A program made the position numbers and the translations under genes. From positions 1 through 36,268 of the forward strand of contig NZ_VIGX01000026.1 of NCBI RefSeq assembly GCF_007858475.1: DNA of 36,268 nucleotides. Reading direction: 5' to 3'. Origin of the DNA: Tsukamurella conjunctivitidis. GTDB taxonomy: Bacteria; Actinomycetota; Actinomycetes; Mycobacteriales; Mycobacteriaceae. Below, piece after piece: positions 2,073 through 25,403 of this stretch. The notes beneath the pieces were generated by a model. It worked only from the letters and a program-made list of their open reading frames with translations, searched no databases and was not told the DNA's origin. Position 1 is the first letter of the stretch. Each line of letters opens with the position of its first letter.

Positions 2073-2073
2073 C

Positions 2074-2107
2074 GTTCCGTTTTCAGAACGTTCCATGAAC
2101 AGAACGT
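2074..2107. promoter_or_regulatory. Candidate operator between benE-like and XRE genes
   Basis: This short divergent gap holds the direct repeat CAGAACGT (2084-2091 and 2100-2107), the perfect inverted repeat GTTC-CAT-GAAC (2090-2100) and a looser GTTC...GAAC pair (2074-2089). Repeats built on one GAAC half-site in a 46-base gap next to an XRE regulator suggest its binding sites. That function is inferred. Confidence 0.45.
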
Positions 2108-2118
2108 AGCATGGGAAC

Positions 2119-2631: not shown

Positions 2632-3194
2632 AAGGCCTCCGCACCGCGCGAGCTGACGACCATGCCGTGCCCGGTGGTCCGGTGGGTGAAGGCGGTGCCG
2701 TACTCGTTGGCGACGATGAACCAGCCCCGTGCCGTGTAGGTCTTGTAGTCCAGAGTCTCCGGGTCGATCGCGCCGAGGTTGCCGAGCACGTACGACAGGT
2801 CGCCGCCACTGGTGACGTTGACGCCGTTGGCCTCGTCGCCGGACTCGGTCCGCGGCCGCGGCTGGTCGAAGACGAGCTGGCAGCCGGCGCTGGTCTCGCT
2901 CACCTGACACCGGGTCCGGCCGCTGCGGGTCTGGATGAAGGTGAAACCGTTCCCGTTGTCGGGCAGGACGATGGCTGTTGCCGCGGCACTCGACGGCGGC
3001 GCACTGGGTGTCGTCGACGGTCCGGCCGGCGTCGTCGTCCCGCCGGTTGGGACGGGCGCGGGCGTGGCGATCCCCGGTCCCACGCCGCCCTTGATGACGG
3101 TCACGCCCGCGCCGTTTCCGGACACCGTCGCAGAGCACCCCGCGAGGAGTGTCGAGCAGCCGACCACCACCGCCATCACGACTCGTGCGCGCAT
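2628..3194 (-). CDS. Putative secreted lipoprotein
   Basis: 188 residues. An N-terminal signal peptide (Arg-rich start, VVMAVVVGCSTLLAGC) ends in a lipobox LLAGC, so the mature protein should be lipid-anchored at Cys19. A low-complexity Pro/Thr/Ser linker (about 35-75) precedes a compact domain (about 80-188) with two Cys in RTRCQVSETSAGCQLVF, probably a disulfide, and a glycine-rich end. The domain resembles unassigned mycobacterial Lpp-type proteins; I cannot give a function. The ATG at 3194 was chosen because a GGAGG ribosome site lies just upstream and it gives a proper signal peptide. It is tail-to-tail with the XRE gene, overlapping it by 4 bases. Confidence 0.8.
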   Translation of the reverse strand: MRARVVMAVVVGCSTLLAGCSATVSGNGAGVTVIKGGVGPGIATPAPVPTGGTTTPAGPSTTPSAPPSSAAATAIVLPDNGNGFTFIQTRSGRTRCQVSETSAGCQLVFDQPRPRTESGDEANGVNVTSGGDLSYVLGNLGAIDPETLDYKTYTARGWFIVANEYGTAFTHRTTGHGMVVSSRGAEAF

Positions 3195-3237
3195 CCGGAA
3201 CCTCCACTCGTCGTCACTTCTGCAACAAGCGTAAACT

Positions 3238-3815
3238 TCAATCCCTTTCGACGCACGAGCGGTCGCCCGAAACACGGGTCCTGAGCAGGGCGGTGTAGTC
3301 ACGCGCTCCCGCCGCGACCGCGGCGTGCACGGCCCGCGCAATCCGCGCGCCCCACTCCGATCGCGGCCCGCCGAAGGACTCCTCGAGCGCTCCGCGCCCG
3401 GGCACCGGCGCGACGATGCACACCGCGTCCGAGGCCGTCCCCGTGCCGGGGTAGCCCTCCTCCAGCAGGGCCTGGGTCTTCGCCTCCGTCACGGTCATCA
3501 CGGCGTTGACCAGCGCACCGTCGGACAGCGGAACCAGCACCTGGATGTTGATGGTGCCCCGGCCGCGGCGGCGGCCGTGAGCATGCCCACGCCGCGCCCG
3601 GCCAGCCCCTGAGCGGCGGCGAGTTCGTCGAGGTGCGCCGCCGCGTCCATCCGGGCGTAGCCGCCCGGGACCTGCGCGTTGATCACCCAGGCGACCGGGC
3701 CGATCCCACCGCCGACCATCGCCGACGAGATCCCGCGCCTGCCCGTCCCGAGCCGCCAGACGGTGGTCGCGGCGACCGCACCATCCTCGTCGCGGTGGAC
3801 CGTCTCGACGTTCAC
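3238..3815 (-). pseudogene. cbiZ: cbiZ (adenosylcobinamide amidohydrolase), internal deletion plus frame change
   Basis: The GTG start at 3815 overlaps the upstream ATPase stop as GTGA. The first frame encodes a clear CbiZ N-terminal half (GGGIGPVAWVINAQVPGGYA, then HLDELA and GVGMLTAA). Near 3555-3575 the frame changes, and the C-terminal half continues in another frame (GTINIQVLVPLSDGALVNAV, TEAKTQALLEEGYPGTGTAS, DAVC). Intact CbiZ proteins have roughly 40 more residues between TAA and GTIN, including a conserved ATVG segment. That segment is absent here, so this is an internal deletion that also broke the frame, not a one-base error alone. CbiZ cleaves the amide side chain of adenosylcobinamide to give cobyric acid during corrinoid salvage. 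The gene is probably inactive. Confidence 0.8.
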
Positions 3816-4579
3816 CGCAGCAACCCCAGCAGCGGCCGCCCGTCGGGGCCGTCCTGGACGTGCACCCGCGCACCGAAGTGCTCGCGGATGAGCTCCGCCG
3901 TGAGTACGCCCCGGGGTGCGCCGGCCGCGGCGACCCGCCCGCCCGCGAGGAGCACCAGGTGATCGGCGTACTGCCCGGCCAGGGTGAGGTCGTGGATCGT
4001 GGTGACGACCGTGAGGCCGTCGGCGCGGCGCAGGTCGTCGATCAGGTCCATGACCTGCTGCTGATGCCCGATGTCGAGGGCCGTCGTCGGCTCGTCGAGC
4101 AGGAGGACCGATGCCTGCTGGGCCAGCGCCCGCGCGAGCACCACCCGTTGTCGCTCGCCGCCGGAGAGGTGCGTGATGTCGCGGTCGGCGAACTCCTCGA
4201 GCTCCAGCCGCCCGAGCACGTCCCGCACGATCCGCCGGTCGGTACCGCTCTCGCGGCCGAGGTAGGGGATGTACGGCGACCGGCCGAGCAGCGCGTAGTC
4301 GAAGATCGTCATCCCCTCGGGCAGGTTCGGCGATTGCGGCGCGTAGGCGATCGACCGCGCGCGCTCGCGCGGTGAACGCCGCCGCGGGTCGGCACCGTCG
4401 ACCGTGATCGCTCCCCCGCTGCGCACCAGGCCCAGGACCGCCCTCAGGAGCGTCGACTTCCCCGCGCCGTTCGGCCCGACGATCGCGGTCCAGGTGCCCG
4501 ACGGTGCCGCCATCGTGACGTCGTGCAGGACGGGGCGGCCGTCGAGAGCCACGTCCACGCCGGAGATCTCCAACCTCAT
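3812..4579 (-). CDS. btuD: Corrinoid-type ABC transporter ATP-binding protein (BtuD/FecE-like)
   Basis: 255 residues with all ABC ATPase motifs: Walker A GPNGAGKST (about 36-44), Q-loop YAPQS, signature LSGGERQR (about 139), Walker B VLLLDEP, D-loop TALDIGH and switch His in TTIHD. It hydrolyses ATP to drive import through the membrane permease encoded just upstream. It overlaps that gene by 4 bases (ATGA) and the cbiZ remnant by 3. The family also serves siderophores; corrinoid specificity is inferred from the adjacent cbiZ and the BtuF-like binding protein. Confidence 0.88.
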   Translation of the reverse strand: MRLEISGVDVALDGRPVLHDVTMAAPSGTWTAIVGPNGAGKSTLLRAVLGLVRSGGAITVDGADPRRRSPRERARSIAYAPQSPNLPEGMTIFDYALLGRSPYIPYLGRESGTDRRIVRDVLGRLELEEFADRDITHLSGGERQRVVLARALAQQASVLLLDEPTTALDIGHQQQVMDLIDDLRRADGLTVVTTIHDLTLAGQYADHLVLLAGGRVAAAGAPRGVLTAELIREHFGARVHVQDGPDGRPLLGLLR

Positions 4580-5652
4580 ACGCCGGCCCTCCCCCGCATC
4601 GATCGCAGCACCACGACGAAGAAGGGGCCGCCGATGAACGCCGTGACCACGCCGAGCGGTAGCTCACCGGGCGCGACAGCGGTCCGGGCCAGCACGTCGG
4701 CGAGCACGAGGAAGGCGGCGCCCGCGAGCAGGGACAGCGGCAGGACCGCGCGGTACGAGGGCCCGGCCAGCCGCCGCACGACATGCGGCACGACGATCCC
4801 CACGAATCCGATGAGGCCGCCGGCCGCCACCGCCACCGCGGTCGCCAGCGACGCCGCGGCGAGCACGAGGAACCGGATCCGACGGGCCGACAGGCCCAGA
4901 GCCGTGGCCTCCTCGTCGCCGACACCGAGCACGTCGAGCAGCCTGCCGTGCAGCAGGAGGACCAGCACGGAGACGGCGGCGTAGGGCAGGAGCGCCCACA
5001 GCCGCGGACCGTCGGCTGCCGCGACGCCGCCCAGTACCCAGGAATAGATCCGGCGCAGCTCCTGCGCGTCGCGCTGCATCAGGAAGGTCTGGACCGCACT
5101 GAGGAAGGCCGAGACGGCGACCCCGGCGAGGAGCAGCGTGGCCTTACCGCGCCCGCCGGCGACGCTGCCGAGCGCGGAGGCCAGGGCGACCCCGGCGAGC
5201 GCGCCGACGAACGCGGCGACCGGCACCGTCGTCGCAGGGGCACCCGGGAACAGGACGATCGTCGCGGTGGCTCCGACCCCGGCGCCCGCGGCCGCCCCCA
5301 GCAGATACGGGTCGGCGAGCGGGTTGCGGAACACCCCTTGGTAGCCCGCACCCGCGATGGCGAGCAGGCCGCCCACCATCGCCGCCGCGAGCACCCTCGG
5401 CAGCCTTATCTCGAGCAGCAGGTTCGCCTGCAGCTGCGACAGTCCCGAATCGACGCGCACGCCCGGAACCCGGTCCAACAGCTCGAGCAGCATCCCGCGG
5501 ACGGGGAGGTCGACCGCGCCCACCAACAACCCGCCGGTCATCGCGCCGAGCAGGGCGACGACGGCGACGAGCAGAGGGAGAGGCCGCAGCCCGCTCGCAC
5601 GCGGCGCCGGGCCCGATGTCGACTGCGCGCCGTCGCGCACCGGTGCGCTCAC
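4576..5652 (-). CDS. btuC: FecCD/BtuC-family ABC transporter permease
   Basis: 358 residues, about 10 predicted membrane helices. It has family-typical stretches such as IRLPRVLAAAMVGGLLAIAG, YQGVFRNPLADPYLLG, GVSAFLSAVQTFLMQ-like text and FVGIVVPHVVRRLAGPSYR, the last being the cytoplasmic loop that couples to the ATPase. The start is GTG at 5652 because this overlaps the binding-protein stop as GTGA; upstream in-frame starts would run far into that gene. It acts as the membrane channel of the corrinoid importer with the ATPase and binding protein of the same operon. Confidence 0.88.
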   Translation of the reverse strand: MSAPVRDGAQSTSGPAPRASGLRPLPLLVAVVALLGAMTGGLLVGAVDLPVRGMLLELLDRVPGVRVDSGLSQLQANLLLEIRLPRVLAAAMVGGLLAIAGAGYQGVFRNPLADPYLLGAAAGAGVGATATIVLFPGAPATTVPVAAFVGALAGVALASALGSVAGGRGKATLLLAGVAVSAFLSAVQTFLMQRDAQELRRIYSWVLGGVAAADGPRLWALLPYAAVSVLVLLLHGRLLDVLGVGDEEATALGLSARRIRFLVLAAASLATAVAVAAGGLIGFVGIVVPHVVRRLAGPSYRAVLPLSLLAGAAFLVLADVLARTAVAPGELPLGVVTAFIGGPFFVVVLRSMRGRAGV

Positions 5653-6578
5653 CCGCCCGCCGGGACCTTCTGCGCCGCGACGGCGATCGCAGCGCCGACG
5701 GCGCGGTAGAAATCGGGGAGCCGCGGCCCCCATCGCGACGGCACGTCGGCCGGCAGGGCGACGACGGTGCCGTCCCGGACCGCCCGGAGATCGCGCCACC
5801 CGGGCCGGCCGGCGACCACGTCCGCACTCTGGCCGCAGCACTGGGCGTCCGCCAGGAAGACGAGCGCGGGGTCCGCCTGCAGCAGCGCCTCCCGGGAGAG
5901 CTGCGGATAGCCGGATCCCGCCGTGTCCGCGGCATCCGCGACGTTCTGCAGCCCGAAGGCGCCGTAGACCCTGCCGATGAACGTCGACGACGTCACGGTG
6001 TAGAGCTGCGGGTCGAGCTCGTGGAAGTAGGTGAGCGGCACGGCGGGACGCGGGGTGGCTCGGACGGTCTCGTCGATCGCGGCCCGCATCCGGTCGACGA
6101 CCGCCTTCGCCTGCTCGACCTGCCCCGTGGCGGCGCCGAGGTCGGCGATCTGGTCGTAGGCCTCGTCGAGGTCCTTCGCCGCGGGTTCCACGAGCACCGG
6201 GATCCGCACCTTCTGCAGGGCCGCGACGATGCCGCCCTGATCGTCCGAGACGATCACCAGATCCGGGGCGTACCCGATGACGGCCTCGGCGTTCGGGGTG
6301 AAGCCCGACAACGCGGTCCGCGGAGCCTCGGCCGGATAGGTCGACTGGTCGTCGACGGCCACCACCCGCTTACCGGCGCCGATCGCGAACAGGGTCTCCG
6401 TGTGCGTGGGCGCGAGCGAGACGATCCGCTGCGGTGCCGCGGGGATCGTGACCGCCCCGTTCGCGGCCTGGACGGTGACCGTCCTCCCCCGCGGCTCCTC
6501 CCGCTGCGCTGCGCCGCAGCCCGCAGCGAGCAGGGCGATCGCGAGCAGCGCGAGCGGTCCTCGGATACGGGCGCGCAT
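5649..6578 (-). CDS. btuF: Corrinoid-type ABC transporter substrate-binding lipoprotein (BtuF-like)
   Basis: 309 residues. The signal peptide with lipobox LLAAGC marks a lipid-anchored extracellular protein. The mature part is a cluster A-III binding protein: RIVSLAPTHTETLFAIGAG, VDDQSTYP, a linking helix through AKAVVDRMRAAIDETV, and a second lobe ending in PRLPDFYRAVG. The ATG at 6578 has a strong GGAGGAGG ribosome site upstream and gives the correct signal peptide. It is the first gene of the four-gene minus-strand operon. Heme or siderophore binding is the alternative; the adjoining cbiZ remnant favours cobalamin or cobinamide. Confidence 0.85.
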   Translation of the reverse strand: MRARIRGPLALLAIALLAAGCGAAQREEPRGRTVTVQAANGAVTIPAAPQRIVSLAPTHTETLFAIGAGKRVVAVDDQSTYPAEAPRTALSGFTPNAEAVIGYAPDLVIVSDDQGGIVAALQKVRIPVLVEPAAKDLDEAYDQIADLGAATGQVEQAKAVVDRMRAAIDETVRATPRPAVPLTYFHELDPQLYTVTSSTFIGRVYGAFGLQNVADAADTAGSGYPQLSREALLQADPALVFLADAQCCGQSADVVAGRPGWRDLRAVRDGTVVALPADVPSRWGPRLPDFYRAVGAAIAVAAQKVPAGG

Positions 6579-6632
6579 CGATCCTCCTCCGGTTCGTCGG
6601 CCCAGTCTCCCAGAGTCGGTATCGTCGCGATC

Positions 6633-7271
6633 GTGAACCTGCTGCTGCTGTCGCTCAATGCGGGCGCTCTCCCCGACTTCCTCCGCCGGCACACCGGACG
6701 GGAACCGAGCGCCCTCCGGATCGGCTTCATCGACGACGCCGGCGCGCCGTACGCGGATCAGCCCTTCGGCTCCTTCGAGTGGACACAGCTCACGGACCTC
6801 GGCTTCCGCCTGACCCGGATGACCGTCGGAAAGTACCGGGACGCGGCCGATTTCGACTCGGACCTGAACAGCGTCGACGCCGTCTACCTCTCGGGCGGCC
6901 ACACCTTCGTCCTCCTCGGCGCCCTGCAGGGCAACGGCACCGGCGAGGTGCTCAAGGCCCGGGTCCGCGCAGGGCTGCCCTACATCGGGCTCAGCGCGGG
7001 CTCGGTCGTGGCAGGACCGAACGTCGAGCCGGTCGCGCCGCTCGACGATCCCGCCGATGCGCCCGGCGTCACCGATTACACGGGCCTGGGCCTCGTGGAC
7101 ACCGTCGTCATCCCGCACGCGGACGGCGCCCTGCCGCCCTATCCGTCGTCGATGATCGACGACGTCGTCCGCACCTACGGGGAGCGCTTCCCGCTGACCC
7201 GGGTCAACGACGATCAGGCGCTCCTCGTCGAGGACGGCGTCGCCACCCTCATCCCCTCGGCGATCACCTAG
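6633..7271 (+). CDS. Peptidase E-like (family S51) protein
   Basis: 212 residues, the usual length for the family. The nucleophile elbow GLSAGSVVAG, with catalytic Ser in G-x-S-A-G-S, lies at about residues 125-134. It is preceded by YLSGGHTFVLL and followed by GLGLVDTVVIPHAD, all typical of dipeptidase E and cyanophycinase relatives. Such enzymes are cytoplasmic and cleave Asp-X dipeptides or related substrates. The GTG at 6633 was chosen because it gives the standard MNLLLLS-type N-terminus. It is divergent from the BtuF-like gene with a 54-base gap, so both promoters must lie there. Confidence 0.85.
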   Translation: MNLLLLSLNAGALPDFLRRHTGREPSALRIGFIDDAGAPYADQPFGSFEWTQLTDLGFRLTRMTVGKYRDAADFDSDLNSVDAVYLSGGHTFVLLGALQGNGTGEVLKARVRAGLPYIGLSAGSVVAGPNVEPVAPLDDPADAPGVTDYTGLGLVDTVVIPHADGALPPYPSSMIDDVVRTYGERFPLTRVNDDQALLVEDGVATLIPSAIT

Positions 7272-7346
7272 AGCGCTCACGCGGAGACCGCGTCACAGGC
7301 CGCCGTTCCCGCCTCGGCGCGCCTTTGCGAGCGTTACGATCGACGC

Positions 7347-8477
7347 ATGACCGGCATGCTCTCCGACGTATTGCCCTCGGTCTGTAGCGCTTTCGGCATC
7401 GCCGTTGAGAACCGGCTGGGACTGACCGTCGAGCGGGACGTCGTCCTCCTTCTCATCGACGGGCTCGGCGCGGAACTCCTGCGGCGCCACGCCGAGGACG
7501 CACCGACGCTGGCGGCGCACGTGCGCACCACGCTCAACGCGGGCTTCCCCGCGACCACTGCGAGCAGCCTGTCGAGCCTCGCCCTCGGCGCGCCGTGCGC
7601 GGCGCACGGGATCGTCGGCTACAGCTTCGGCGTCCCCGACGAACACGGCCGCCGCCTGTTCAACTCGTTGCGGTGGACCATCGACGGCGCGAGCGGACCC
7701 GATGCCCGCGAGACGCATCCGCCGCGCGAACTGCAGCGCCGCCGCAGCCGGCTCGAGGACCTCGCCGAGGCCGGCGCCGAGATCCACTACGTCGTCCCCG
7801 GTTACCAGGAGACGTCGGGCCTGACCCTGGCGTCGTTCCGTGCGCCGGGCATCCTCCACCCGGCGTCCCACCTCGACGAGGTCCGCGCGGGCGTGCTCGA
7901 GGTCGCCCGGCACGACTCCGCTGCCCGTCGGTTCGCGTACGCCTACACGGGCCTGCTGGACGCAGCCGGTCACGTGCACGGCCCCGGTTCGGCCGAATGG
8001 CTGGGCGTGCTGCGCGCCGTCGATGCGATGTTCGCGGACCTCCTGGCCGACCTTCCCGGAACCTGCACCGTGCTGGTCACCGGCGACCACGGGATGATCC
8101 AGGCCGAATCACTGGTGAACCTCGACGTGCTCCCCGCGCTGCGTCACGGTGTCCGCATCATCGCGGGAGAGGCTCGGGTGCGGCACGTCTACCTCGCGCG
8201 GGGCCACCACGTCGACGACGTTCTCGCGCGATGGTCGGAGACGCTCGGGCCGCATGCCCGGGTGGTCACCCGGGAGCGGGCGCTCGACGAGCACTGGTTC
8301 GGTCCCACGCCCCCGAACCCCGTCATCGCGCACCGCATCGGCCACGTCCTCGCCGTCGCTCAGGGCGGATCGGTCCTGGTGACGCCCAGTCAGGAGCCGA
8401 TGGAATCCCGCATGCTCGGCCATCACGGCGCGTGGACAGTCGACGAACAGGCCATCCCGCTCATCACCGTCCCGTGA
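7347..8477 (+). CDS. Alkaline phosphatase superfamily / nucleotide pyrophosphatase-like enzyme
   Basis: 376 residues. Metal-site and nucleophile motifs appear in family order: VVLLLIDGLG (first metal Asp), NAGFPATTASSL (Thr nucleophile), GLLDAAGHVHGPGS (Asp-x-x-Gly-His) and VLVTGDHGM (Asp-His pair). The C-terminal His in RMLGHHGAWT completes the site. Members hydrolyse phosphodiesters or phosphonates; the substrate is unknown. There is no signal peptide, so it is probably cytoplasmic. A second ATG lies 9 bases inside. The ribosome site is weak at both, so the start could be either. Confidence 0.85.
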   Translation: MTGMLSDVLPSVCSAFGIAVENRLGLTVERDVVLLLIDGLGAELLRRHAEDAPTLAAHVRTTLNAGFPATTASSLSSLALGAPCAAHGIVGYSFGVPDEHGRRLFNSLRWTIDGASGPDARETHPPRELQRRRSRLEDLAEAGAEIHYVVPGYQETSGLTLASFRAPGILHPASHLDEVRAGVLEVARHDSAARRFAYAYTGLLDAAGHVHGPGSAEWLGVLRAVDAMFADLLADLPGTCTVLVTGDHGMIQAESLVNLDVLPALRHGVRIIAGEARVRHVYLARGHHVDDVLARWSETLGPHARVVTRERALDEHWFGPTPPNPVIAHRIGHVLAVAQGGSVLVTPSQEPMESRMLGHHGAWTVDEQAIPLITVP

Positions 8478-8593
8478 TCACCCGCCGCACGATGGGACAC
8501 GAGGCGAACGCGCCCCTGTCCGATTCTTGCGGGAGTGTCCCGTAGGATACCGAAACAAAAGCAACGACAGTCCAGGGTGAAGACGCTCAGCCC

Positions 8594-9787
8594 TTGCATG
8601 ACACCAGGGTGGTGCCCACCATCGAAACGACGAAGCCGCCGCAGGTCGCCGCGCCCGAGAAGGCGCCGGCGAAGCCGAAGCGCGAGCAGACCGCCGACCT
8701 GACGCGCGTCCTCCTGTTCCTGGGCGTCGTGATCGCGCACTGCGTCACCACGATCAACTACACCCCGGACGTGATCCGGCAGACCGGCGCCGTGTCCGCT
8801 GCGCTGCACCTGACCCGGTACGGCTTCGTCGCGGTCACGCTCTTCGTCCTAGTCCTGAGCATGCGCGGGCGCACCATGACGGCGCGCGAATTCTGGCGCA
8901 AGCGCTTCGGGCTCATCGTCGGCCCCTATCTCGTGTGGACCCTCGTCTACTCGATCACCGATCACCTGCTCATCGCCGGAGACCCGTTCCCCTCGCCCGG
9001 GCGCTGGCTCGGCGACCTGGCCCGCACCACCTTCACCGGCGACGCCAAGTACCAGCTGTACTTCCTGCTGATCTCGATGCAGATCTACTTGTTCTTCCCG
9101 GCGCTGCAGAAGCTCTCACGCAAGCTCGAGCGTCACCCGTGGGCGGTCCTGCTGACGGCGGGTGGGATCCAGCTGGGCTTCTTTGCCTTCTACCAGTACT
9201 TCCCGCGGCCTCCGGGCCAGCCGTGGGAGACGATGTTCAACCACATGTGGAAGCTGCTTCCCATGTACGTGTTGTTCGTGGCGATGGGCATGCTCGCCGC
9301 GCAGCACTACGCGAAGGTCGGCCCCTGGCTCCGGTCGCACGCCCTGCGGCTGGTGGCCGTCTGCCTCGCGGCGGGCGCGTTCAGCCTCGTCGTGTACCTG
9401 CGCGACACCGAGCCCGGCATCGTCCCGGACACCGCGACCGCCGCGTGGAACCCGCTGTACCTCCCCTGGTACGTCGCGGCCACGATCCTGATCTGGCTGG
9501 TGGCGATGATGTGGGACGATCTGCGCGCCTCGGGCCGTGCCGTCGGCGAGCGCGCCGTCTCCTACGCGACGATCCGCGCCTTCGGCGTCTTCGCGGTGCA
9601 CCCACTGATGCTCGACATCCTGAGCAAGGCCGGTTTCTTCGAGCTGCTCGGCACGTGGTTCCCCGCCTCCGCGCTGCTGCGCACCGCGACGCTGTCCGTG
9701 GTCGTCCTCGCCATGTCGCTGCTCTTCGTCGACATCGTGCTGCGGACCCCCGTCAGCCGGTGGATCGTGGCTCGCGACCGCATCTGA
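8594..9787 (+). CDS. Acyltransferase-3 family integral membrane protein
   Basis: About 397 residues with roughly ten hydrophobic helices. A charged Pro/Lys-rich N-terminus precedes DLTRVLLFLGVVIAHC, where the His matches the conserved position of acyltransferase-3 helix 1. YGFVAVTLFVLVLSM and RKRFGLIVGPYLVWTL follow as the family's next segments. Such enzymes acetylate or acylate surface polysaccharides and lipids. The start is uncertain: TTG at 8594 and GTG at 8609 or 8612 are all possible and none has a good ribosome site. The gene stands alone between plus-strand and minus-strand neighbours. Confidence 0.8.
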   Translation: MHDTRVVPTIETTKPPQVAAPEKAPAKPKREQTADLTRVLLFLGVVIAHCVTTINYTPDVIRQTGAVSAALHLTRYGFVAVTLFVLVLSMRGRTMTAREFWRKRFGLIVGPYLVWTLVYSITDHLLIAGDPFPSPGRWLGDLARTTFTGDAKYQLYFLLISMQIYLFFPALQKLSRKLERHPWAVLLTAGGIQLGFFAFYQYFPRPPGQPWETMFNHMWKLLPMYVLFVAMGMLAAQHYAKVGPWLRSHALRLVAVCLAAGAFSLVVYLRDTEPGIVPDTATAAWNPLYLPWYVAATILIWLVAMMWDDLRASGRAVGERAVSYATIRAFGVFAVHPLMLDILSKAGFFELLGTWFPASALLRTATLSVVVLAMSLLFVDIVLRTPVSRWIVARDRI

Positions 9788-9800
9788 CCGCGCCCTCGGG

Positions 9801-11096
9801 TCAGTACCAACTCGACGGTGCCGCCTGCGGCTTCTGCACCCAGAGCGCGTCCGTCGGGACGCCCGGCGCCCCGGTCCGCCACCGGCGGATCGCCTCGTCG
9901 CGCAGCGGCTGGTCGAACTGCTCGTTGCGCATCCGCTGGTCCACGTACAGCAACGTCTGCACGCCGGCCAGGAAAGGCACCGTGAGGAGCTGCGCGATGA
10001 ACGATCCGACGCCGGTGACCGCGAGCGCGGGCAGCGTCAGCCCAGCGAGGGTGTCGGCACCGTCGCCGCCGTCGACAACGGCGGCGACGATAGTGCTCGG
10101 GATCGAGACGACGATCGCGATGATGCCGGTGATCAGGTACGTCAGCAGCAGGACGCCGAGGACCCGCCAGAAGCCGGGCTTCTGCAACTCGTAGCCCCGC
10201 TTGAGCGCGGCGATCGGGCCGAGGTGCTCAAGGACCACCGCGGGGTACGAGAGCGAGACGGTCGGCAGGAGCGCCAGGTACCCGACGACCAGCACGAGGA
10301 ACAGCACGAACGCCACGAGGACCGCAACGAGGGGGCCCGCATCGCCCGACGCCACCCCGATGAGGACGACGAGGCCGACCACGACGGCGGTCGGCACGAG
10401 GAAGATGAGGAACTGCAGCAGGCTCAGCCCGATCAGCGACGGCAGGCGCGGACCGATCGCCCGCACCGCTACGCCGACCGTCGTCCGCTCCCCCATGACC
10501 GCGCGGGCGACCGCGACCGTCAGGACTCCCGTGAGGAACAACGTGGCGATCCCGGCGATCAGCCCGATGCCGAAGCCGAGCCCCGTCGCGGTCGCCAGGT
10601 CACCGAAGAACTCCGCGTCCTCGGCGTCCGAGTCCACCGCGATGCGGGTCATCGGAACCTGCGCGAGGAGGACGATCAACTCGGTCACCAGCAGGAACAC
10701 AGCCGTCACGCCGACCATGACGCCCGGGTTGGTGCGGATGGCCGCGACCGCGCCGCTGTAGATCGCGCCCAGGTCGAGCGGGCGGAGCGGGATGATGCCG
10801 ACCTTCACGTCGGGCGCCGGCGCGCCCCAGCCGGGGGCGGGCGGGACGTACCCCGGCTGGGCGTACCCCGGCTGGCTGTAGCCCGGCTGGGCGTACCCCG
10901 GCTGCGCGTAACCCGGCTGGGCCTGGCCGTGCGGCTGCGCCCACGGATCGCCGGAGGGATACTGCGGCGGCCCCGCCTGCTGCCCGTCGTACTGGGTGCC
11001 GCCCTGCTGCGGGTCACCGTGGGCTGGCGCGCCCCACTGGCCGTCGGGGCCGTAGCTGGGCTGATTGCCGGTTCCGTCGGAATTCACAGCACTCAT
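9801..11096 (-). CDS. Multi-pass membrane protein, glycerophosphodiester-phosphodiesterase membrane-domain-like
   Basis: 431 residues. The N-terminal 105 are disordered, rich in Gln, Gly, Pro and Tyr, and hold five consecutive QPGY-x repeats (about residues 66-90). The rest has six to seven long hydrophobic helices with RPLDLGAIYSGAVAAIRTNP before the first and LKRGYELQKPGFWRVLG in a cytoplasmic loop, a layout I associate with the GPDPase membrane-domain family in actinobacteria. The function is unknown; the tail could be an interaction platform. The ATG at 11096 is preferred over an upstream ATG at 11114 because the shorter N-terminus is typical, but ribosome signals are weak for both. Confidence 0.75.
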   Translation of the reverse strand: MSAVNSDGTGNQPSYGPDGQWGAPAHGDPQQGGTQYDGQQAGPPQYPSGDPWAQPHGQAQPGYAQPGYAQPGYSQPGYAQPGYVPPAPGWGAPAPDVKVGIIPLRPLDLGAIYSGAVAAIRTNPGVMVGVTAVFLLVTELIVLLAQVPMTRIAVDSDAEDAEFFGDLATATGLGFGIGLIAGIATLFLTGVLTVAVARAVMGERTTVGVAVRAIGPRLPSLIGLSLLQFLIFLVPTAVVVGLVVLIGVASGDAGPLVAVLVAFVLFLVLVVGYLALLPTVSLSYPAVVLEHLGPIAALKRGYELQKPGFWRVLGVLLLTYLITGIIAIVVSIPSTIVAAVVDGGDGADTLAGLTLPALAVTGVGSFIAQLLTVPFLAGVQTLLYVDQRMRNEQFDQPLRDEAIRRWRTGAPGVPTDALWVQKPQAAPSSWY

Positions 11097-11881: not shown

Positions 11882-12595
11882 ATGACCGGCACACCCGAGG
11901 GCCCCGACGTTGCACAGGTTGCACCGCCCGCCGATCTGATCCGCGAGGGCCGTGAGAAGCTGGCAGCAGTAACACCCGGCGACTGGCTCATCCATGACCG
12001 TGGAATTGGCGTCGAGGTGCACGCGCCGAACGGCGCAGACTCGGCGGACCCAGGTGGGACGCACTGCCTCACTGACGACGATGTGTTCAATGAGCGGTAC
12101 GTGCCTGGGAGCACCGGGAACGCTGAGTTCATCGTGTGGGCGCGGAACAACCTGCCCGCCGTGCTGGACGCGCTCGAAAGCATGCAAGCCAAACGAGAGC
12201 GCCGAGGTCGAGCATTCGTGACTGCGGTCCAGGAGCGCGACACTCTATGGCATGCGCTCGAGCAGATACTCCACGTTCAGCTGCACGAGAGCATGGAGTG
12301 GGAGACAGTCCAGCGGATCGTAGACGCCGGGATCGAGGGCTTTGACGAGGCGTACGGCTACCCGGACATTCCTAACAGCTACCGGGCGGTGACGACCGCC
12401 GAGGATCTGGACGCGCTGCCCCTTCGCACCGTTGCGGTCGAACCCGACACCGATCATGTGTGGATCCGTCACAGCGAGAAGTGGCACTGCTCCTGCGACG
12501 GAACCGGCGTTGAGTGGACCAGCGCGGAAGTGTTCGGCGACCTGGGAACAGGTGGCCGCCCACTCACTGTTGTCTGGCTCCCCGAGGAGTCTTGA
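11882..12595 (+). CDS. Phage protein, Ead/Ea22-like N-terminal region
   Basis: 237 residues. The stretch NAEFIVWARNNLPAVLDALE (about 80-100) is the hallmark of phage Ead/Ea22-like proteins, followed by a helical segment. The C-terminal part (about 160-237) has a separate small domain with HVWIRHSEKWHCSCDG. The function is unknown; such proteins are non-essential early genes in many temperate phages. A GGAGG ribosome site lies at a good distance from the ATG. The stop overlaps the integrase start by one base (TGATG), so the two are probably co-translated. Confidence 0.75.
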   Translation: MTGTPEGPDVAQVAPPADLIREGREKLAAVTPGDWLIHDRGIGVEVHAPNGADSADPGGTHCLTDDDVFNERYVPGSTGNAEFIVWARNNLPAVLDALESMQAKRERRGRAFVTAVQERDTLWHALEQILHVQLHESMEWETVQRIVDAGIEGFDEAYGYPDIPNSYRAVTTAEDLDALPLRTVAVEPDTDHVWIRHSEKWHCSCDGTGVEWTSAEVFGDLGTGGRPLTVVWLPEES

Positions 12596-13884
12596 TGGCA
12601 GCCGAGAAGAAGAAGCGGCGAGCCAAAGGCGACGGATCCATCTTCCAACGCGCCGACGGCTACTGGGTCGCCGTCGTCGAACTCCCACCCGGCCTCAACG
12701 GCAAACGCAACAGCAAACGCATCGTCCGCAAATCCAAAGCCGACGCCATGACCGAACTCCGCAAAATCCGCACCCAAGTCGAACGCGGCGAAGTCGTCAC
12801 CAGCCGCAACGTCATCATGTCCGTCTGGTGCGAACACTGGCTCACCGAAATCGCCCCCACCAAACTCCGCCCCGCCGCACTCGACACCAACCGGTCCTAC
12901 ATCAACAACCACATCCTCCCCGCCATCGGACGCAAACGACTCGACCGCCTCACCGCCGACGACATCCGCTCCGTCACCCGCATCATGACCCGCCCCACCG
13001 AAGAAGGCGGCAAAGGACTCGCAACCGGCACCGCCAAAAACGTCCACTGGCTCATGTCCGGCATCCTCGACGACGCCGTCAAATCCGGCCGCGTCCACAA
13101 CAACGTCGTCGACCGCGTCGCACCTCCCGCCGTCGTCCGCACCGTACGCCGACCACTCACCTACACCGAGTGCATGGAAATCCTCCGACACCTCGCCGCA
13201 CACGCAGACGCCACCCGCAACACCCCCGACGAACTCCCCGCCGTCCAAGCACTCGCACGCTGGACCTTCGGCATCTTCACCGGCACACGCCAAGAAGACA
13301 TCCTCGGCCTCACCTGGGACATGATCGACCTCAACACCGCAACCGCCGACATCCGCCGATCACTCCAATGGCTCCCCCTCCGCGACGGCTACTCCCGCGG
13401 CCACGGCAGGCACCTCACCGGCCCCGACCTCTACCCCCGCGAAGCCTTCAAAGTCGACCCCGGCGTCGTCTTCGAACCACTCTGGCGATCCGCCTGCCTC
13501 GTCGAAACCAAAACCCGACGCCGCCGAATCGTCCCCCTCATCCCCCAACTCGTCGCATCCCTCCGCCGACTCCACGAAATCGACACCACCCAACGCGCCG
13601 GCAACCTCGTCTTCACCCGCCCCGACGGCCGCCCACTACGCCGCCAAGACGACACCAATGCATGGAACGAGCTGTGCCGCGGCCTCGGCATCGAAGGCGT
13701 CCACCAACACGGCGCACGGCACACCACCGCCACCCTGCTCCTCGAGGCCAGTGTACCTGAGGACGTGCGGATGGCGATTCTCGGTCACAGCACGGCGGCT
13801 GCTCATCGTGGGTACGCGCACGTCGACCAGACCGTCACCCGCGCCGCACTCGAAGGCGCATTCAGCGGGATGCTCGACGGCTAG
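12595..13884 (+). CDS. int: Tyrosine site-specific recombinase (phage integrase)
   Basis: 429 residues, standard for the family. Layout: N-terminal arm-binding region (about 10-50, GDGSIFQRADGYWVAVVELP), SAM-like core-binding domain (about 75-165), and catalytic domain with the first Arg in FTGTRQEDILGLTW, the His-x-x-Arg box in HQHGARHTTATLLLE, GHS, and the nucleophile Tyr in AHRGYAHV. It joins and excises the phage at the tRNA-Gly attachment site. Odd: the middle of the gene (about 12615-13735) uses almost only C- or A-ending codons (GAA, CAA, AAA), while the last 45 codons switch to G/T-ending ones. This suggests a recombinant gene. Confidence 0.95.
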   Translation: MAAEKKKRRAKGDGSIFQRADGYWVAVVELPPGLNGKRNSKRIVRKSKADAMTELRKIRTQVERGEVVTSRNVIMSVWCEHWLTEIAPTKLRPAALDTNRSYINNHILPAIGRKRLDRLTADDIRSVTRIMTRPTEEGGKGLATGTAKNVHWLMSGILDDAVKSGRVHNNVVDRVAPPAVVRTVRRPLTYTECMEILRHLAAHADATRNTPDELPAVQALARWTFGIFTGTRQEDILGLTWDMIDLNTATADIRRSLQWLPLRDGYSRGHGRHLTGPDLYPREAFKVDPGVVFEPLWRSACLVETKTRRRRIVPLIPQLVASLRRLHEIDTTQRAGNLVFTRPDGRPLRRQDDTNAWNELCRGLGIEGVHQHGARHTTATLLLEASVPEDVRMAILGHSTAAAHRGYAHVDQTVTRAALEGAFSGMLDG

Positions 13885-18864: not shown

Positions 18865-19220
18865 CCGCCTTCACGATCCGTCGCCTGCACCCCGACATCC
18901 TCGCCATCGACGACGGAACCCGCGCATGGACCGCAACCGTCGACCCTGACCGCAGTGTTCGCCGCATCGCCAACGCCACATCCGGCCGCGCGCTGAAACT
19001 CGACGGGCCGCTCGGGAAGCGCATCACCGCAGCCGTGCACGACTGGCTCGTGGAATGCGCCGAGCAACTGCCAGCAGCGCTGGACGAGTACGTGCGGACG
19101 TTGACGGACAGCACCGAAGTGATCCCGCGGCTCGACGCCTGGGATCGCTGCAAGCAGCTCGGCGCGAACCGCTACGACTACGACCGCGCACGACGACGCG
19201 CAGAAGGGATCGCATCATGA
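18861..19220 (+). CDS. Phage protein of unknown function
   Basis: 119 residues, mixed strand and helix, no motif. It is coupled upstream by ATGA and downstream to the exonuclease gene by ATGA. A recombination accessory role is possible from position only. Confidence 0.6.
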
Positions 19221-20047
19221 GCCTGCAGGTATTCCCGCAGATGGATCAGAGAAGCGACGCCTGGCACGAAGCCCGCCGCGGACTCGTCACCGCATCCACC
19301 GTCGGCCAACTCCTCACCACCCGCCGACTCACCGCAGTCGACTACATATGCCCAGCCTGTAGTTCCCCAGCCGGTGAGCCCTGCATCGGAGCACGCGGCG
19401 GACCCATCAAGACGATGCACACCGAGCGCACCGCCAAAGCCAAGAGCACCAGCAGCCCACTCATCATCGAGCCGGCGTCCAACGACAGCTCGCGCGGGCT
19501 CACGAAACGTCTCGTCGCCGAACGCATCACCGGCCAAGTCGACGACAACACGTTCATCTCGGACGACATGCAACGGGGCATCGACCACGAGCCCTACGCC
19601 CGCGACCGATACGCCGAAGTCAACGGCGTCACCGTCGAACAGGTCGGGTTCATGGTCCGCGACGTCGACGGCATCCGCTGGGGCTGCTCACCCGACGGCC
19701 TCATCAACACCGACGGGATGCTCGAGGTCAAGTGTCCGCGCCCGGCAACGCACATCGACACCATCATCGCCGACACCGTCCCTATTGAGCACATGCCGCA
19801 ACTCCAATGCGCCCTGCTCACCTCAGGCCGCCAGTGGATCGACTTCGTGTCGTTCGTCGCCGGGCTGCCGCTCTACACGAAGCGCGTGTTCCCCGACGCG
19901 CGATGGACCCGCCCGATCTACGACGCCATCCGCCAGTTCGAAGCCAACGCCATCGAACGACAGCGGCTGTACGCCGAAGCCGCCGAGGGACTACCCAGCA
20001 CCGAACGCATTCCCGAAATCCCCACCGAAATGAGGTTCGCATCATGA
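19217..20047 (+). CDS. YqaJ / lambda-exonuclease-type 5'-3' DNA exonuclease
   Basis: 276 residues. The PD-(D/E)XK nuclease core is seen in order: RSDAWHEARRGLVTASTVG (family opening), GIDHEPYARDRY (Glu), WGCSPDGLI (Asp) and LEVKCP (Glu-x-Lys). It resects double-stranded ends for single-strand annealing. Odd: a Cys cluster, CPACSSPAGEPC, followed by a His about 13 residues on, is inserted between the opening motif and the catalytic core (about residues 45-72); it is probably a small zinc ribbon. An AAGGGA ribosome site supports the start. The partner is probably the next gene. Confidence 0.9.
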   Translation: MSLQVFPQMDQRSDAWHEARRGLVTASTVGQLLTTRRLTAVDYICPACSSPAGEPCIGARGGPIKTMHTERTAKAKSTSSPLIIEPASNDSSRGLTKRLVAERITGQVDDNTFISDDMQRGIDHEPYARDRYAEVNGVTVEQVGFMVRDVDGIRWGCSPDGLINTDGMLEVKCPRPATHIDTIIADTVPIEHMPQLQCALLTSGRQWIDFVSFVAGLPLYTKRVFPDARWTRPIYDAIRQFEANAIERQRLYAEAAEGLPSTERIPEIPTEMRFAS

Positions 20048-22254: not shown

Positions 22255-23081
22255 CCCGAACCTGCACCCGACCAGGGTGCGAACAGAAGCACCTCGCACG
22301 AGGACTCTGCCGCCGCCACTACCGGGCCAACCAGTACCGCCAGTCCGCCTACGGCCGCTGGGAACCGTTCCAACGCGTACCCACCACCCCAGCTCGTCAA
22401 CGCGTCCAAGAACTCCTAGACGCCGGCCTCACGCAGGCCACGATCGCAGACCTATCCGGTCTCAACGCGCGAACCATCTCAGGCCTCCTCAACAGCGAGT
22501 ACGACACCGTATTCGTGAGCACCGTTCGCGCACTCAACGCCGTTCGACTGCCACCACTCGAACGGCTGAACCCGCAAGGCCTCGTCGCCAACGTCGGAAC
22601 AGCGCGCCGGTTACAGGCGCTCGCAGCGATCGGCTGGGAGGCGGGAAAGATCCGCGCCGAACTCGGCTGGGCGCAACCGCAGCTGACTCGGGTCCGATCA
22701 GGCACGCAACGGCAGGTGACCGTGGCCGTCGCGATACAGGTACGCGACCTGTACACACGACTTCACCTCATCGACGGAGGCGGCGGACTGAAATCCCGCC
22801 GGTATGCCATCCGCGCCGGCTGGGCACTCCCGCTCGAGTGGGACGACATCGACAACCCTGATGAGACCCCGACCGGCCGCCGCGAACTCTTCGGCCAACA
22901 GAAGGCTGAGACCCTCGATCGTCGCGAGCAAGTCGCCGAATGGATGGACGACCCCCGCCCCGAATGGCACAAAGGCACCGCCATGCAACTCGCAGAACGC
23001 CTCGGGTGTACGGACCGCACCATCGAGCGCGACAAGGCCCACATCCGCTCTCAACGCGCCAAAGAGGAGGACGCGGCATGA
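22251..23081 (+). CDS. Phage DNA-binding protein with Cys/His N-terminus and two HTH segments
   Basis: 276 residues. The N-terminus CTRPGCEQKHLARGLCRRHY is a compact C3H zinc motif (residues 4-23). A first HTH lies at LTQATIADLSGLNARTISGL (about 59-79), and a second at the C-terminus (MQLAERLGCTDRTIERDKAH). Between them is a repeated-helix region. It probably binds DNA at two sites, as a regulator or replication accessory. I do not recognise a named family. Confidence 0.65.
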   Translation: MTRTCTRPGCEQKHLARGLCRRHYRANQYRQSAYGRWEPFQRVPTTPARQRVQELLDAGLTQATIADLSGLNARTISGLLNSEYDTVFVSTVRALNAVRLPPLERLNPQGLVANVGTARRLQALAAIGWEAGKIRAELGWAQPQLTRVRSGTQRQVTVAVAIQVRDLYTRLHLIDGGGGLKSRRYAIRAGWALPLEWDDIDNPDETPTGRRELFGQQKAETLDRREQVAEWMDDPRPEWHKGTAMQLAERLGCTDRTIERDKAHIRSQRAKEEDAA

Positions 23082-23365
23082 AACCCATCCAGCACGGCAC
23101 CAACGCCGGCTTCCAGCAACACCGACGCCGAGGAGTACCCGCTTGCGACGAATGCCGAGCCGCTCGAGCCGCTTACGACACCCGCCGACGACGCGCCAAC
23201 GGACAGCCCGCACGCGAGGCAGGCAAGTACACATCAGTACCCACCACCGCGCTCGCAGACCTCTACCTCAACGCCTCAGTCGAAGCGCAACAACGCGCAG
23301 AACAGGTGATACGAGAAGACGTCCTCAAGCTAGCGGTCGACCGATACGACAAGGAGGTCGCATGA
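23078..23365 (+). CDS. Small basic phage protein with CxxC
   Basis: 95 residues. HGTNAGFQQHRRRGVPACDE then CRAARAAYDTRRRR resembles a recurring actinophage motif (H-G-T, then C-x-x-C-R-x-A). A helical tail follows. GAGGAGG lies upstream. Its stop overlaps the start of the interrupted methyltransferase copy by ATGA. Confidence 0.6.
   Translation: MKPIQHGTNAGFQQHRRRGVPACDECRAARAAYDTRRRRANGQPAREAGKYTSVPTTALADLYLNASVEAQQRAEQVIREDVLKLAVDRYDKEVA
23351..23357 (+). promoter_or_regulatory. Strong ribosome site of the original methyltransferase start
   Basis: AAGGAGG stands just before the ATG of the truncated first methyltransferase copy (23362). The rebuilt copy at 23906 has no comparable site. This supports the view that the upstream copy is the original gene start. 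Confidence 0.6.
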
Positions 23366-23412
23366 CCCGGCCGCGCCTGCTCGACCTGTACTGCTGCGCA
23401 GGAGGAGCCGCG
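23362..23412 (+). pseudogene. Original 5' end (codons 1-17) of the C5 cytosine methyltransferase gene
   Basis: Seventeen codons encode MTRPRLLDLYCCAGGAA, motif I of a C5 methyltransferase. At 23413 the match stops, and the next three bases (TTA) are the reverse complement of the stop codon of the antisense HNH gene. The frame stays open beyond this only as a mirror of the HNH gene and shows no methyltransferase sequence. The same 17 residues, with one change, restart at 23906. Confidence 0.85.
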
Positions 23413-23886
23413 TTAGACAGACTTCCAGATATTGCGACGGGTTATGTCACTGACAGTCTTTCGGTCGACGCTAAACGAACGCGCAAGAGCCCGTATCGAT
23501 TCCCCGCCCTCATGTCTGCGACGAAGATCTTTAACCTCCGGCGTAGTGAGCTTCGAAGCAGGGTTCATTTCACCCACATGATGGGTGGTAACCCCGCGCG
23601 CCTTAGCTCTCATGTCCGCCAAGTTGTCGAATTGCGAACCGATCCTAAGGTGCTTCGGATTCACGCACGGAGGATTGTCGCACGTGTGCATCACTACAAA
23701 TCCATCCGGGATTGGCCCATTGTGAATTTCCCAGCTAACACGGTGCGCTTTAAGGTTCTTCCCGAGCCGTCTCATCTGCCCGTATCCAGTTGGACGTCGA
23801 GACGCGGTCCACTCCCAGCATTCAGATTCCGAACCCTTGGCGACCTTAGGCCAAAACTGCTCATCAATCGGTTTGGTGTGTCCCAT
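23413..23886 (-). CDS. HNH homing endonuclease
   Basis: 157 residues. The N-terminus has FWPKVAKG, CWEWTAS and TGYGQM, then HRVSWEIHNGPIPDGFVV, and the HNH core HTCDNPPCVNPKHLRIGS, where His and Asn coordinate the metal for DNA cleavage. A C-terminal HTH (LTTPEVKDLRRRHEGGESIR, then RKTVSDITR) is probably the DNA-recognition part. It is the only minus-strand gene between the repressor and HicAB. Its start codon overlaps an in-frame plus-strand ATG at 23885 (CATG). It looks intact and probably active. Confidence 0.85.
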   Translation of the reverse strand: MGHTKPIDEQFWPKVAKGSESECWEWTASRRPTGYGQMRRLGKNLKAHRVSWEIHNGPIPDGFVVMHTCDNPPCVNPKHLRIGSQFDNLADMRAKARGVTTHHVGEMNPASKLTTPEVKDLRRRHEGGESIRALARSFSVDRKTVSDITRRNIWKSV

Positions 23887-23962
23887 GACTGAAAGTATAC
23901 CAAAGATGCCCCGCCCCCGACTGTTGGATTTGTACTGTTGCGCCGGAGGTGCGGCAGTTGGC
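23413..23962. mobile_element. HNH homing cassette carrying a recoded 5' exon of its target gene
   Basis: The unit consists of an antisense HNH gene (23413-23886), a 19-base link, and a recoded copy of methyltransferase codons 1-17 plus about two more (23906-23962). The left border is exact: codon 17 of the original gene is followed directly by the HNH stop. On the right, codon choice changes back from TTG, GAT, TGT, GGT and GTT to the C-ending style at about 23963. The link and HNH gene look less GC-rich than their surroundings. The HNH family's homing behaviour is known; the cassette model is inferred. Confidence 0.7.
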
Positions 23963-24553
23963 TACCACCGCGCCGGCTTCGACATCGTCGGCGTCGACAT
24001 CGACCCCCAACCGAACTACCCGTTCACATTCGTCCAGGCCGACGCGCTCAAGTTCCTCCTCGAGAGCCACAGCGAGTTCGAGGCGTACCACGGCAGCCCG
24101 CCATGCCAGGCGTTCACGAATGCTCAACGCATCCAGGGCAACGACCATCCCGACTTCATCACAGCGACCCGCTCAGCACTCAAGCTGATCGGCAAGCCAT
24201 ACGTGATCGAGAACGTCCCCGGAGCGCCGCTCGACGACCCATTCGTGCTGTGCGGCGCGATGTTCCCCGGGCTCAAGACCTACCGGCACCGCCTGTTCGA
24301 GAGCAACATCCCAATCTGGACCCCGCGGCACCCCGAGCACGCCGTCCCGACAACCAAGATGGGCCGCAAGCCGGTCGCAGGTCAATTCATGCACGTCGTC
24401 GGCAACTTCTCCGGAGTCCAGCAGGCTCGCGAGGCCATGGGAATCGACTGGATGACACGGGATGAACTCCGCGAAGCGATCCCACCGGCGTACACCGAGC
24501 ACATCGGCCGCCAGCTCATAGCGGCCCTCGTCGGCCAGGAGGCGTTGTTCTGA
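23906..24553 (+). CDS. C5 cytosine-specific DNA methyltransferase, 5' end rebuilt by the HNH cassette
   Basis: 215 residues, short for the family but normal for phage enzymes. Motif I RLLDLYCCAGGAAVGYHRAG, GVDIDPQP (cofactor Asp), motif IV HGSPPCQAF with the catalytic Cys, motif VI VIENVPGA, and RHRLFE (motif VIII region). It transfers a methyl group from S-adenosylmethionine to cytosine, probably protecting phage DNA from host restriction. The first 17 codons come from the cassette; after about 23963 the codon style changes. ATG 23906 is preferred; ATG 23885 would add seven residues. Its own ribosome site is poor. Confidence 0.85.
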   Translation: MPRPRLLDLYCCAGGAAVGYHRAGFDIVGVDIDPQPNYPFTFVQADALKFLLESHSEFEAYHGSPPCQAFTNAQRIQGNDHPDFITATRSALKLIGKPYVIENVPGAPLDDPFVLCGAMFPGLKTYRHRLFESNIPIWTPRHPEHAVPTTKMGRKPVAGQFMHVVGNFSGVQQAREAMGIDWMTRDELREAIPPAYTEHIGRQLIAALVGQEALF

Positions 24554-24554
24554 C

Positions 24555-25403
24555 ATGCCGTGGTTCGCTGTAGACGATCAGTTCGCCTTCCACGCGAAGG
24601 CGATCACAGCTGGAAATGAAGCGCTCGGAATGTGGGTGCGCGCCGGCTCGTGGTGCCAGCAACAGGGCGGAACGGGAGTCGTCCCCGAAGGGATTGTTGC
24701 GGCCCTCGGAGGGATCGATCTGGCTGAGAAACTGGTCCGTGCGGGGCTCTGGGCGCGCACCCCGAGTGGTTTCAAATTTCACGAGTGGGATGAGTATCAG
24801 AAGCTCAATTCGGCCGCCCGGAACCGGAGTGCGAAGCGCGCTGAGGCGGGCCGGATGGGTGGGTTGAAGTCGGGTGAGGCGCGTCGCGCGAAAGCCGCAA
24901 ATCGGACAGAGTCTGTGAAGCAAACCGCGAAGCAAACGCCGAAGCAACCCCTGAAGCAAACTCCATTTTGCTTCGAAGCAAAAACATCACCTGACCTGCA
25001 AGAATCGAAGCAAACGAAGCAAAACGGGAACCCATTACCCAATACCCTTACCCATAGGGTTGCTTTAGGAGAGGGAGTTACGTTGGCAACCGCGCGCGTT
25101 TGCCCCCGCCACCCTGACGGCAACCCGACCGGCGAAGCGTGCGGCGGCTGCGCCGACGCCCGCCGCGCCGTCGCTGCCGATGCAGCCGAAGCGCTCGAGG
25201 CTGCCAAGCGAGCCCGATCGGCCGAGGTTCGTGAGCAAGCCGCCGGCAAGCTCGCCGCCATCGCCGACTGCGGCCTCTGCGACGACAACGGCTACCGCGG
25301 CACCGTCGTCTGCGACCACATCGACCACGCGCCAGCAGCCGCACGAGGACGAGCCAAAATCCAGGCGGAACTCGATGCGATCGCAGCGAGGAAATCCGCA
25401 TGA
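24555..25403 (+). CDS. Replication-initiator-like phage protein with iterons in its gene
   Basis: 282 residues. The N-terminal 90 (WFAVDDQFAFHAKAITAGNE, LWARTPSGFKFHEWDEYQ) form the winged-helix domain common in actinophage replication proteins. A charged low-complexity linker (about 100-165) contains KQT repeats encoded by the iterons. The C-terminal part has two Cys pairs, in CPRHPDG/CGGCADARR and CGLCDDNGYRG, possibly zinc binding, and a helical segment. A separate gene could start at TTG 25083, where GGAGAGGGAG gives a ribosome site, but the frame is the same and continuous. The layout resembles lambda O. Confidence 0.75.
   Translation: MPWFAVDDQFAFHAKAITAGNEALGMWVRAGSWCQQQGGTGVVPEGIVAALGGIDLAEKLVRAGLWARTPSGFKFHEWDEYQKLNSAARNRSAKRAEAGRMGGLKSGEARRAKAANRTESVKQTAKQTPKQPLKQTPFCFEAKTSPDLQESKQTKQNGNPLPNTLTHRVALGEGVTLATARVCPRHPDGNPTGEACGGCADARRAVAADAAEALEAAKRARSAEVREQAAGKLAAIADCGLCDDNGYRGTVVCDHIDHAPAAARGRAKIQAELDAIAARKSA
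24917..25065 (+). repeat. Iteron array and AT-richer stretch, candidate phage replication origin
   Basis: GAAGCAAAC or close variants start at 24917, 24929, 24941, 24953 (exact 12-base pitch), 24975, 25007 and 25016. TTTTGCTTCGAAGCAAAA (24966-24983) is a perfect 18-base palindrome containing one direct and one inverted copy. After the last copy comes an A/T-richer stretch with ACCC repeats (ATTACCC, AATACCC, TTACCC, 25034-25054). Iterons followed by an AT-rich unwinding element inside the initiator gene match lambda-type origins. Confidence 0.6.

Follow-up and report, generated by a model that had tools for sequence, protein, structure and literature searches.

A putative HNH homing cassette with a replacement gene end in a prophage C5 methyltransferase gene, and similar layouts at other phage genes

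The window analyzed here (one 36,268-base contig in the 5.07 Mb draft genome of Tsukamurella conjunctivitidis) probably contains an intron-less homing cassette, consisting of an HNH endonuclease gene and a diverged replacement 5' end, whose insertion point is motif I of a prophage C5 methyltransferase gene. Codons 1-17 of the original gene would have stayed behind as a dead remnant, and the methyltransferase would now be made from the start and first codons of the cassette, joined to what is presumably the old body of the gene. Comparison with alleles without the HNH showed the same architecture in Mycobacterium phage Misha28 (3' end) and in phage CHX131 (5' end), and cases at other HNH loci showed its recurrence in unrelated genes.

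The locus begins with an upstream gene of 95 aa that has a weak WhiB-like PHROG match (23078..23365, forward strand) and whose stop codon overlaps the ATG at 23362 (ATGA). This ATG follows a Shine-Dalgarno sequence, AAGGAGG (23351..23357, forward strand), presumably that of the original methyltransferase start, and opens the remnant, which corresponds to original methyltransferase codons 1-17 with motif I (MTRPRLLDLYCCAGGAA; 23362..23412, forward strand). Directly after codon 17, base 23413 is the first of the stop codon, on the reverse strand, of an HNH homing endonuclease-like gene of 157 aa with a C-terminal HTH-like region (23413..23886, reverse strand). The product belongs to HNH_3 (Pfam E 4.4e-13; 49.1 bits against a curated cut-off of 24.8) and also matches PHROG endonuclease families. 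A gap of 19 bases containing a TATAC-type motif (23887..23905) separates the divergent starts of the HNH and methyltransferase genes. Beyond it, the 17 codons of the replacement 5' end (MPRPRLLDLYCCAGGAA...; 23906..23956, forward strand), 12 of which, and one residue, are unlike the remnant, open a complete C5 methyltransferase gene of 215 aa (23906..24553, forward strand). The first-pass annotation had described the AAGGAGG and ATG, the break after codon 17 with the antisense HNH stop codon next to it, and the restart, just past the HNH start, of a gene that continues intact; each of these features was confirmed. Read on from the remnant, the frame stays open across the HNH antisense strand for 176 aa (23362..23892, forward strand) and ends at a TGA (23890-23892) 13 bases 5' of ATG 23906, which is +1 relative to it. 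The viral-contig locus L304 has the same layout as the window, and there 3 bases separate the stop from the new ATG.

The restarted gene matched PHROG 363 (DNA methyltransferase) with E 1.9e-47 and had no Pfam match at E 0.001; similar phage genes are annotated as DNA cytosine methyltransferase. PPCQ, ENV and a C-terminal YTEHIGRQL, which we take to be C5 methyltransferase motifs, were seen by eye, and this family match together with the intact motifs places the product among the C5 methyltransferases. It is followed by a gene for a replication initiation protein of 282 aa (24555..25403, forward strand). Since the window also encodes an integrase (12514-13884) and a RecE-like exonuclease (19055-20047), it was marked as a prophage. 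None of five large ORFs to the left of the integrase (1650-10191, chosen solely for their length) matched a PHROG, and the left third of the contig may therefore belong to the host chromosome; the large right-hand ORFs at 27885 and 32578 had no PHROG match either.

The two 17-codon copies differ, as had been claimed, by a single residue (Thr2 to Pro; 16/17 identical) yet mostly in their codons: 12/17 codons and 13/51 bases are different, and the longest common run is 7 bases. Five codons are identical against 7.9 expected from independent draws (P 0.063), a shortfall that is only suggestive. Both flanks of HNH genes related to that of the window were compared with each other, with swapped flanks as the control. 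The window duplication exceeds chance: compared in translation, its two copies score 90-91, and the control maxima were 53 (300 pairs), 58 (1500) and 50 (1500), or 44 among 2000 pairs with an identity filter. Two of 800 wide-flank controls scored above the window pair, one being an identical stretch (684) and the other an HNH-to-HNH match (105); among 5000 final controls one reached 90, a true homologue from Gordonia phage Wrigley, and the next scored 59.

Whether the new 5' end is foreign was also approached through composition. G or C occupied the third position of 14/17 remnant codons, 11/17 codons of the new end, 170/199 of the methyltransferase body and 92/158 of the HNH gene, and by codon-usage likelihood the new end was not separable from the body. 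Codon usage and GC3 are thus not decisive as proof of a foreign origin, and since codon usage fails to set the new end apart, what looks recoded may simply be the sequence of a diverged homologue. The closest homologues (L003, L046 and L007) keep 13-14/17 residues at 36-41/51 bases; by the same measure the window copies keep 16/17 residues at 38/51 bases. The first-pass annotation had proposed aligning both copies to uninvaded alleles. In the 5' DNA of 28 relatives the remnant was nearer than the new end in 16, tied in 5 and farther in 7. This leans towards the remnant as the native form of the methyltransferase 5' end, although GC content and the common ancestry of some relatives confound the comparison.

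The same annotation had suggested that uninvaded alleles with codon 17 joined directly to codon 18 should be sought. No close HNH-free allele of the window gene was found in phages, genome contigs (26 loci) or plasmids, among the best 80 of 357 viral-contig matches, or in 15 other genomes of the genus and 400 others of the family; therefore the codon 17-18 join was not seen. The nearest methyltransferases have 73-76% protein identity to that of the window, and an HNH of the window type lies within 2.5 kb of the methyltransferase in only 4/110 relatives. The upstream gene (23078-23365) had no match in the loci compared, and two other neighbours in the window have distant homologues (27-32%) near some relatives. 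At locus L056 (2952-4040) a methyltransferase relative has a truncated 5' copy broken in motif I, then two unrelated ORFs and no HNH, then a full gene with a diverged 5' end. This is perhaps a cassette whose nuclease was replaced; as a duplication without an HNH, it indicates that the layout can exist without one.

Closer comparisons were available for the C5 methylase of Misha28, whose final 28 codons, counting the stop, have been rewritten and are rich in AT. The order there is the rewritten methylase end, the HNH gene and then the native 3' end as a remnant. Against phage TChen, 1332/1430 bases of the body but 50/85 of the rewritten end are identical (Fisher 3e-17), and the remnant is identical at 75/75, as are the next 300 bases. 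The rewritten end differs from TChen at 5/27 residues, and of the 22 codons that specify the same residue 2 are identical versus 8.6 expected from independent draws (P 0.0004). Identity to six alleles without the Misha28 HNH was 0.85-0.93 in the body, 0.59-0.66 in the rewritten end and 0.79-1.00 in the remnant, where 'HNH-free' means that there is no insertion at the methylase 3' end and two of the six, Dante and Dori, have other HNH genes in the vicinity. Identity was lower towards the end of the body, at 0.79-0.90 over its last 120 bases, than over the body as a whole. In all six, the methylase is a single gene continuous with a remnant-type 3' end.

The Misha28 arrangement also occurs in Awesomesauce and SkinnyPete; across the three phages, which represent two genera, the rewritten end (85/85) and the HNH (586/586) are identical and the remnants match each other at 61-72/75. 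Identical rewritten ends and HNH genes beside differing remnants fit a cassette that moves as a unit. The methylase bodies of Misha28 and Awesomesauce are themselves identical (1430/1430), and plain recombination may thus equally account for its spread between these phages. In Gordonia phage Wrigley (L112, 2396-3060) an HNH related to that of Misha28 (141/195 residues) has the same methylase 3' end immediately behind it, matching TChen at 61/72 bases; no methylase body lies beside the HNH, and the gene that precedes it is unrelated. Judged by this arrangement, the Wrigley locus appears to be a cassette remnant that has outlived its target gene.

Replacement of a 5' end was seen in T7-like phages whose HNH genes lie at the ribosome site and first codons of the DNA polymerase (L468, 1995-2396; L485, 1771-2172). 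In CHX131 and UKE1 the HNH starts at this site and these codons (ATG TTT GAC or GAT), which in phage YZ1 lie just ahead of the conserved polymerase region, and the polymerase restarts after the HNH with a changed 5' end. Compared with phage YZ1, the restarted polymerase of CHX131 is identical at 17 of the first 27 bases and then at 1130/1173, and that of UKE1 at 16/27 and then 1139/1173; YZ1 alone, from 237 matching records, served as the HNH-free polymerase allele, and its record sets the polymerase start 27 bases further upstream than the start used here, which is our own reading. The native remnant in CHX131 is 9 bases. In phage HC13 the HNH comes after the SSB stop and ahead of the endonuclease I start, and endonuclease I matches that of PRF-SP9 at 145/210 of the first 210 bases and 222/243 of the rest; this is the window layout with little or no remnant. 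Of the T7-like HNH loci fetched, which also included L110, L465, L466, L467 and L470, the comparison with HNH-free relatives covered those of CHX131, UKE1 and HC13. The earlier interpretation is upheld in part, by analogy with Misha28 (3' end) and CHX131 (5' end): phage HNH cassettes bring in a diverged version of the gene end they displace, the native end can persist as a remnant, and the body continues as in HNH-free relatives; the window gene itself offered no close HNH-free allele.

Across the wider set of HNH loci, a neighbouring-gene end was repeated on the other side of the HNH with a score above 50 in 13 of 318 distinct HNH cores, a sample of the best matches near the seeds used and not a random one, versus 8 of 5000 swapped-flank controls. 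Identical loci were merged, and thus Misha28, Awesomesauce and SkinnyPete were counted once. One of the 13 (L439) enters through an other-strand echo scoring 51; its true pair scores 92, lies partly within the HNH core and is thus hidden by the rule that excludes HNH-to-HNH matches. L157 and L193 were such self matches and were set aside by inspection and later by this rule, which also removed 102 controls, 4 of them scoring above 50. The highest of the 8 controls paired the Misha28 type with Wrigley, a genuine homologue, and the remaining 7 (52-59) were taken for chance. Loci L248, L107, L127 and L473, with scores of 45-49, were not accepted as cases. Four loci (L137, L116, L347 and L202), each either with a score no higher than 46 or not passing the filter, were added on the basis of aligned starts or stops or family homology.

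The resulting 17 cases, all from a viral contig collection except the window, L202 and Misha28, and most of them seen once, comprise 8 replacements of a 5' end (window, L303, L304, L436, L327, L347, L116 and L137) and 9 of a 3' end (L180, L309, L153, L164, L294, L432, L439, L202 and Misha28). L202 mirrors the window, with the HNH at the 3' end of a gene of the same methyltransferase family. Pfam gave names to 7 of 10 target proteins tested, and the named targets are C5 methylase, uracil-DNA glycosylase (UDG), helicase, DNA polymerase A, glycosyltransferase, SU10 adaptor and lysozyme. In L137 and L116 the remnant forms an in-frame fusion with the N-terminus of the HNH, and in L294 (1803-2480) and L439 (2489-2959) a 3' remnant supplies, in frame, the C-terminal end of the HNH protein. 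Among 17 phage records fetched, chosen partly by annotation from 1616 with a match, a gene-end duplication on both sides of the HNH was present in one, Misha28. No close DNA relatives of L309, L432 or L304 were found in phages, nor of L309 in viral contigs, and the L137 target gene matched only its own contig.

Two of these loci have further features. In L432 a single frame (3-2387) matches uracil-DNA glycosylase at residues 9-122 and DNA polymerase A at residues 411-781 and may encode a fusion of UDG and polymerase; its C-terminal codons are repeated beyond an HNH. L347, L374, L377 and L379 are related contigs, about 91% identical, with a common helicase 5' remnant region and HNH; the sequence 5' of the remnant in L347 is arranged unlike that in the other three.

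The main rival to a homing cassette is passive mosaic recombination without homing, in which a block from another phage, made up of an HNH gene and a diverged methyltransferase 5' end, was joined illegitimately to the gene, the HNH is a passenger and the codon differences are ordinary divergence. We consider this unlikely because the association of duplicated gene ends with HNH genes exceeds the control (13/318 versus 8/5000), the HNH lies flush against the junctions, and the change seen in Misha28 and CHX131 is confined to the gene end beside it, even though cargo other than an HNH separates the two 5' copies in L056 and the retention of 13-14/17 residues at 36-41/51 bases by homologues means that 16/17 at 38/51 needs no special recoding. 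An origin from two methyltransferase genes in tandem, of which a deletion shortened the first before the HNH entered, would account for an N-terminus that is present twice. It is very improbable, given that the first copy consists of codons 1-17 only and ends at the HNH stop codon, and that the Misha28-type methylase is single and continuous with a remnant-type 3' end in six fetched alleles. The first-pass annotation had named two separate full genes in related phages, one of them merely truncated, as evidence against its proposal. No such case was found: in the host genome there is a single methyltransferase match of this kind besides a 19-residue fragment, and therefore no tandem pair of full genes. 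The notion that the 176-aa frame encodes an overlapping protein with a function of its own, or that splicing or a frameshift connects it to the methyltransferase, has least to recommend it. The frame is open for 176 codons behind a strong ribosome site, but such openness has a chance probability of about 0.15-0.59 (for which reason it was rejected as a sign of selection), the product has no PHROG or Pfam match at E 0.001, and the downstream methyltransferase is complete on its own.

Under the homing cassette that we favor, the HNH protein would cut HNH-free alleles at motif I, and repair from an HNH-containing allele would copy the HNH and the replacement end together, both steps being modeled on the known homing treated in passages of PMC2988022. 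The changed codons plausibly remove the cut site and so would confer resistance, and the low identity of the two copies, with its 7-base limit, would prevent the recombination that would drop the HNH. The weak ribosome site of the new start may gain from reinitiation after the TGA at 23890-23892, and the chimeric methyltransferase presumably stays active. Taking all cases together, we lean slightly towards the broader view that phages harbor widespread, as yet unnamed, natural cut-and-rescue elements. These would be HNH cassettes with a rewritten target-gene end that enter conserved motifs (methylase motifs I and X, the polymerase start and the lysozyme C-terminus) without an intron or intein, are self-immune, resist loss by repeat recombination and drive chimeric gene ends.

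A nuclease combined with a recoded rescue of its target gene is the cleave-and-rescue principle, and the phage cassettes would be a natural counterpart of the gene drives engineered on it. On the usual view, a selfish endonuclease persists in a coding gene by being spliced out, or else occupies the space between genes; HNH cassettes appear to persist by bringing spare parts for the genes they interrupt. Such cassettes would explain the truncated fragments and chimeric gene ends that lie next to HNH genes and make annotation difficult. Since Misha28 and TChen grow on the same laboratory host, the cassette is testable. No paper among the matches listed in our literature search, which lay largely outside subscription papers and preprints, described replacement gene ends at phage HNH genes.

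Several known systems share parts of this design. The ShiLan element is an out-of-frame HNH that invades mycobacteriophage DNA methylase genes and for which homing without splicing was proposed, according to passages of PMC11855218. An HNH element invading phage DNA methylase genes is common to both systems; however, the ShiLan insertion is described there as read through in frame, with the gene kept as one ORF, and the word starts recod and duplicat are absent from the main text of that paper. The window is not an insertion of this type, as the new ATG is +1 to the remnant frame, which ends at 23892. Free-standing phage homing endonucleases such as T4 SegG are similar in that the endonuclease gene lies near its target and repair co-converts the flanks; unlike the cassettes, the passages on intronless homing in PMC2988022 describe no replacement gene end within the target gene, and the word starts truncat, duplicat and remnant are absent from its main text. 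Engineered home-and-rescue and Cleave-and-Rescue drives likewise place a nuclease and a recoded rescue in one element (PMC7968924 and PMC7951863), although they are engineered, and CRISPR-based in PMC7968924, and the phage element is natural with a single nuclease.

Fungal mitochondria provide nearer parallels. Introns with duplicated N-terminal gene ends are described in passages of PMC7315562, and there too a mobile element duplicates and exchanges the beginning of its host gene. In contrast to these, the phage cassette needs no intron and the gene restarts at its own start codon; in the window the downstream copy is complete with its own first 17 codons, and the first flank is duplicated and not needed. 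The closest known kind, as far as the passages of PMC3630166 on mobile ORFs extend, are those with duplicated C-terminal gene ends in Allomyces (atp6) and Glomus (atp6, atp9, cox2 and nad3), where the native and replacement copies of Glomus atp6 have 63.5% identity. They differ in having LAGLIDADG or GIY-YIG endonucleases, a mitochondrial setting and C-terminal ends, whereas the phage cassettes have HNH genes at either gene end and in either orientation. In both, an endonuclease gene sits inside a coding gene with a foreign replacement end and the native end persists as a remnant; this arrangement of the fungal elements was found in the window, where the endonuclease gene lies between a native remnant and a diverged replacement end.
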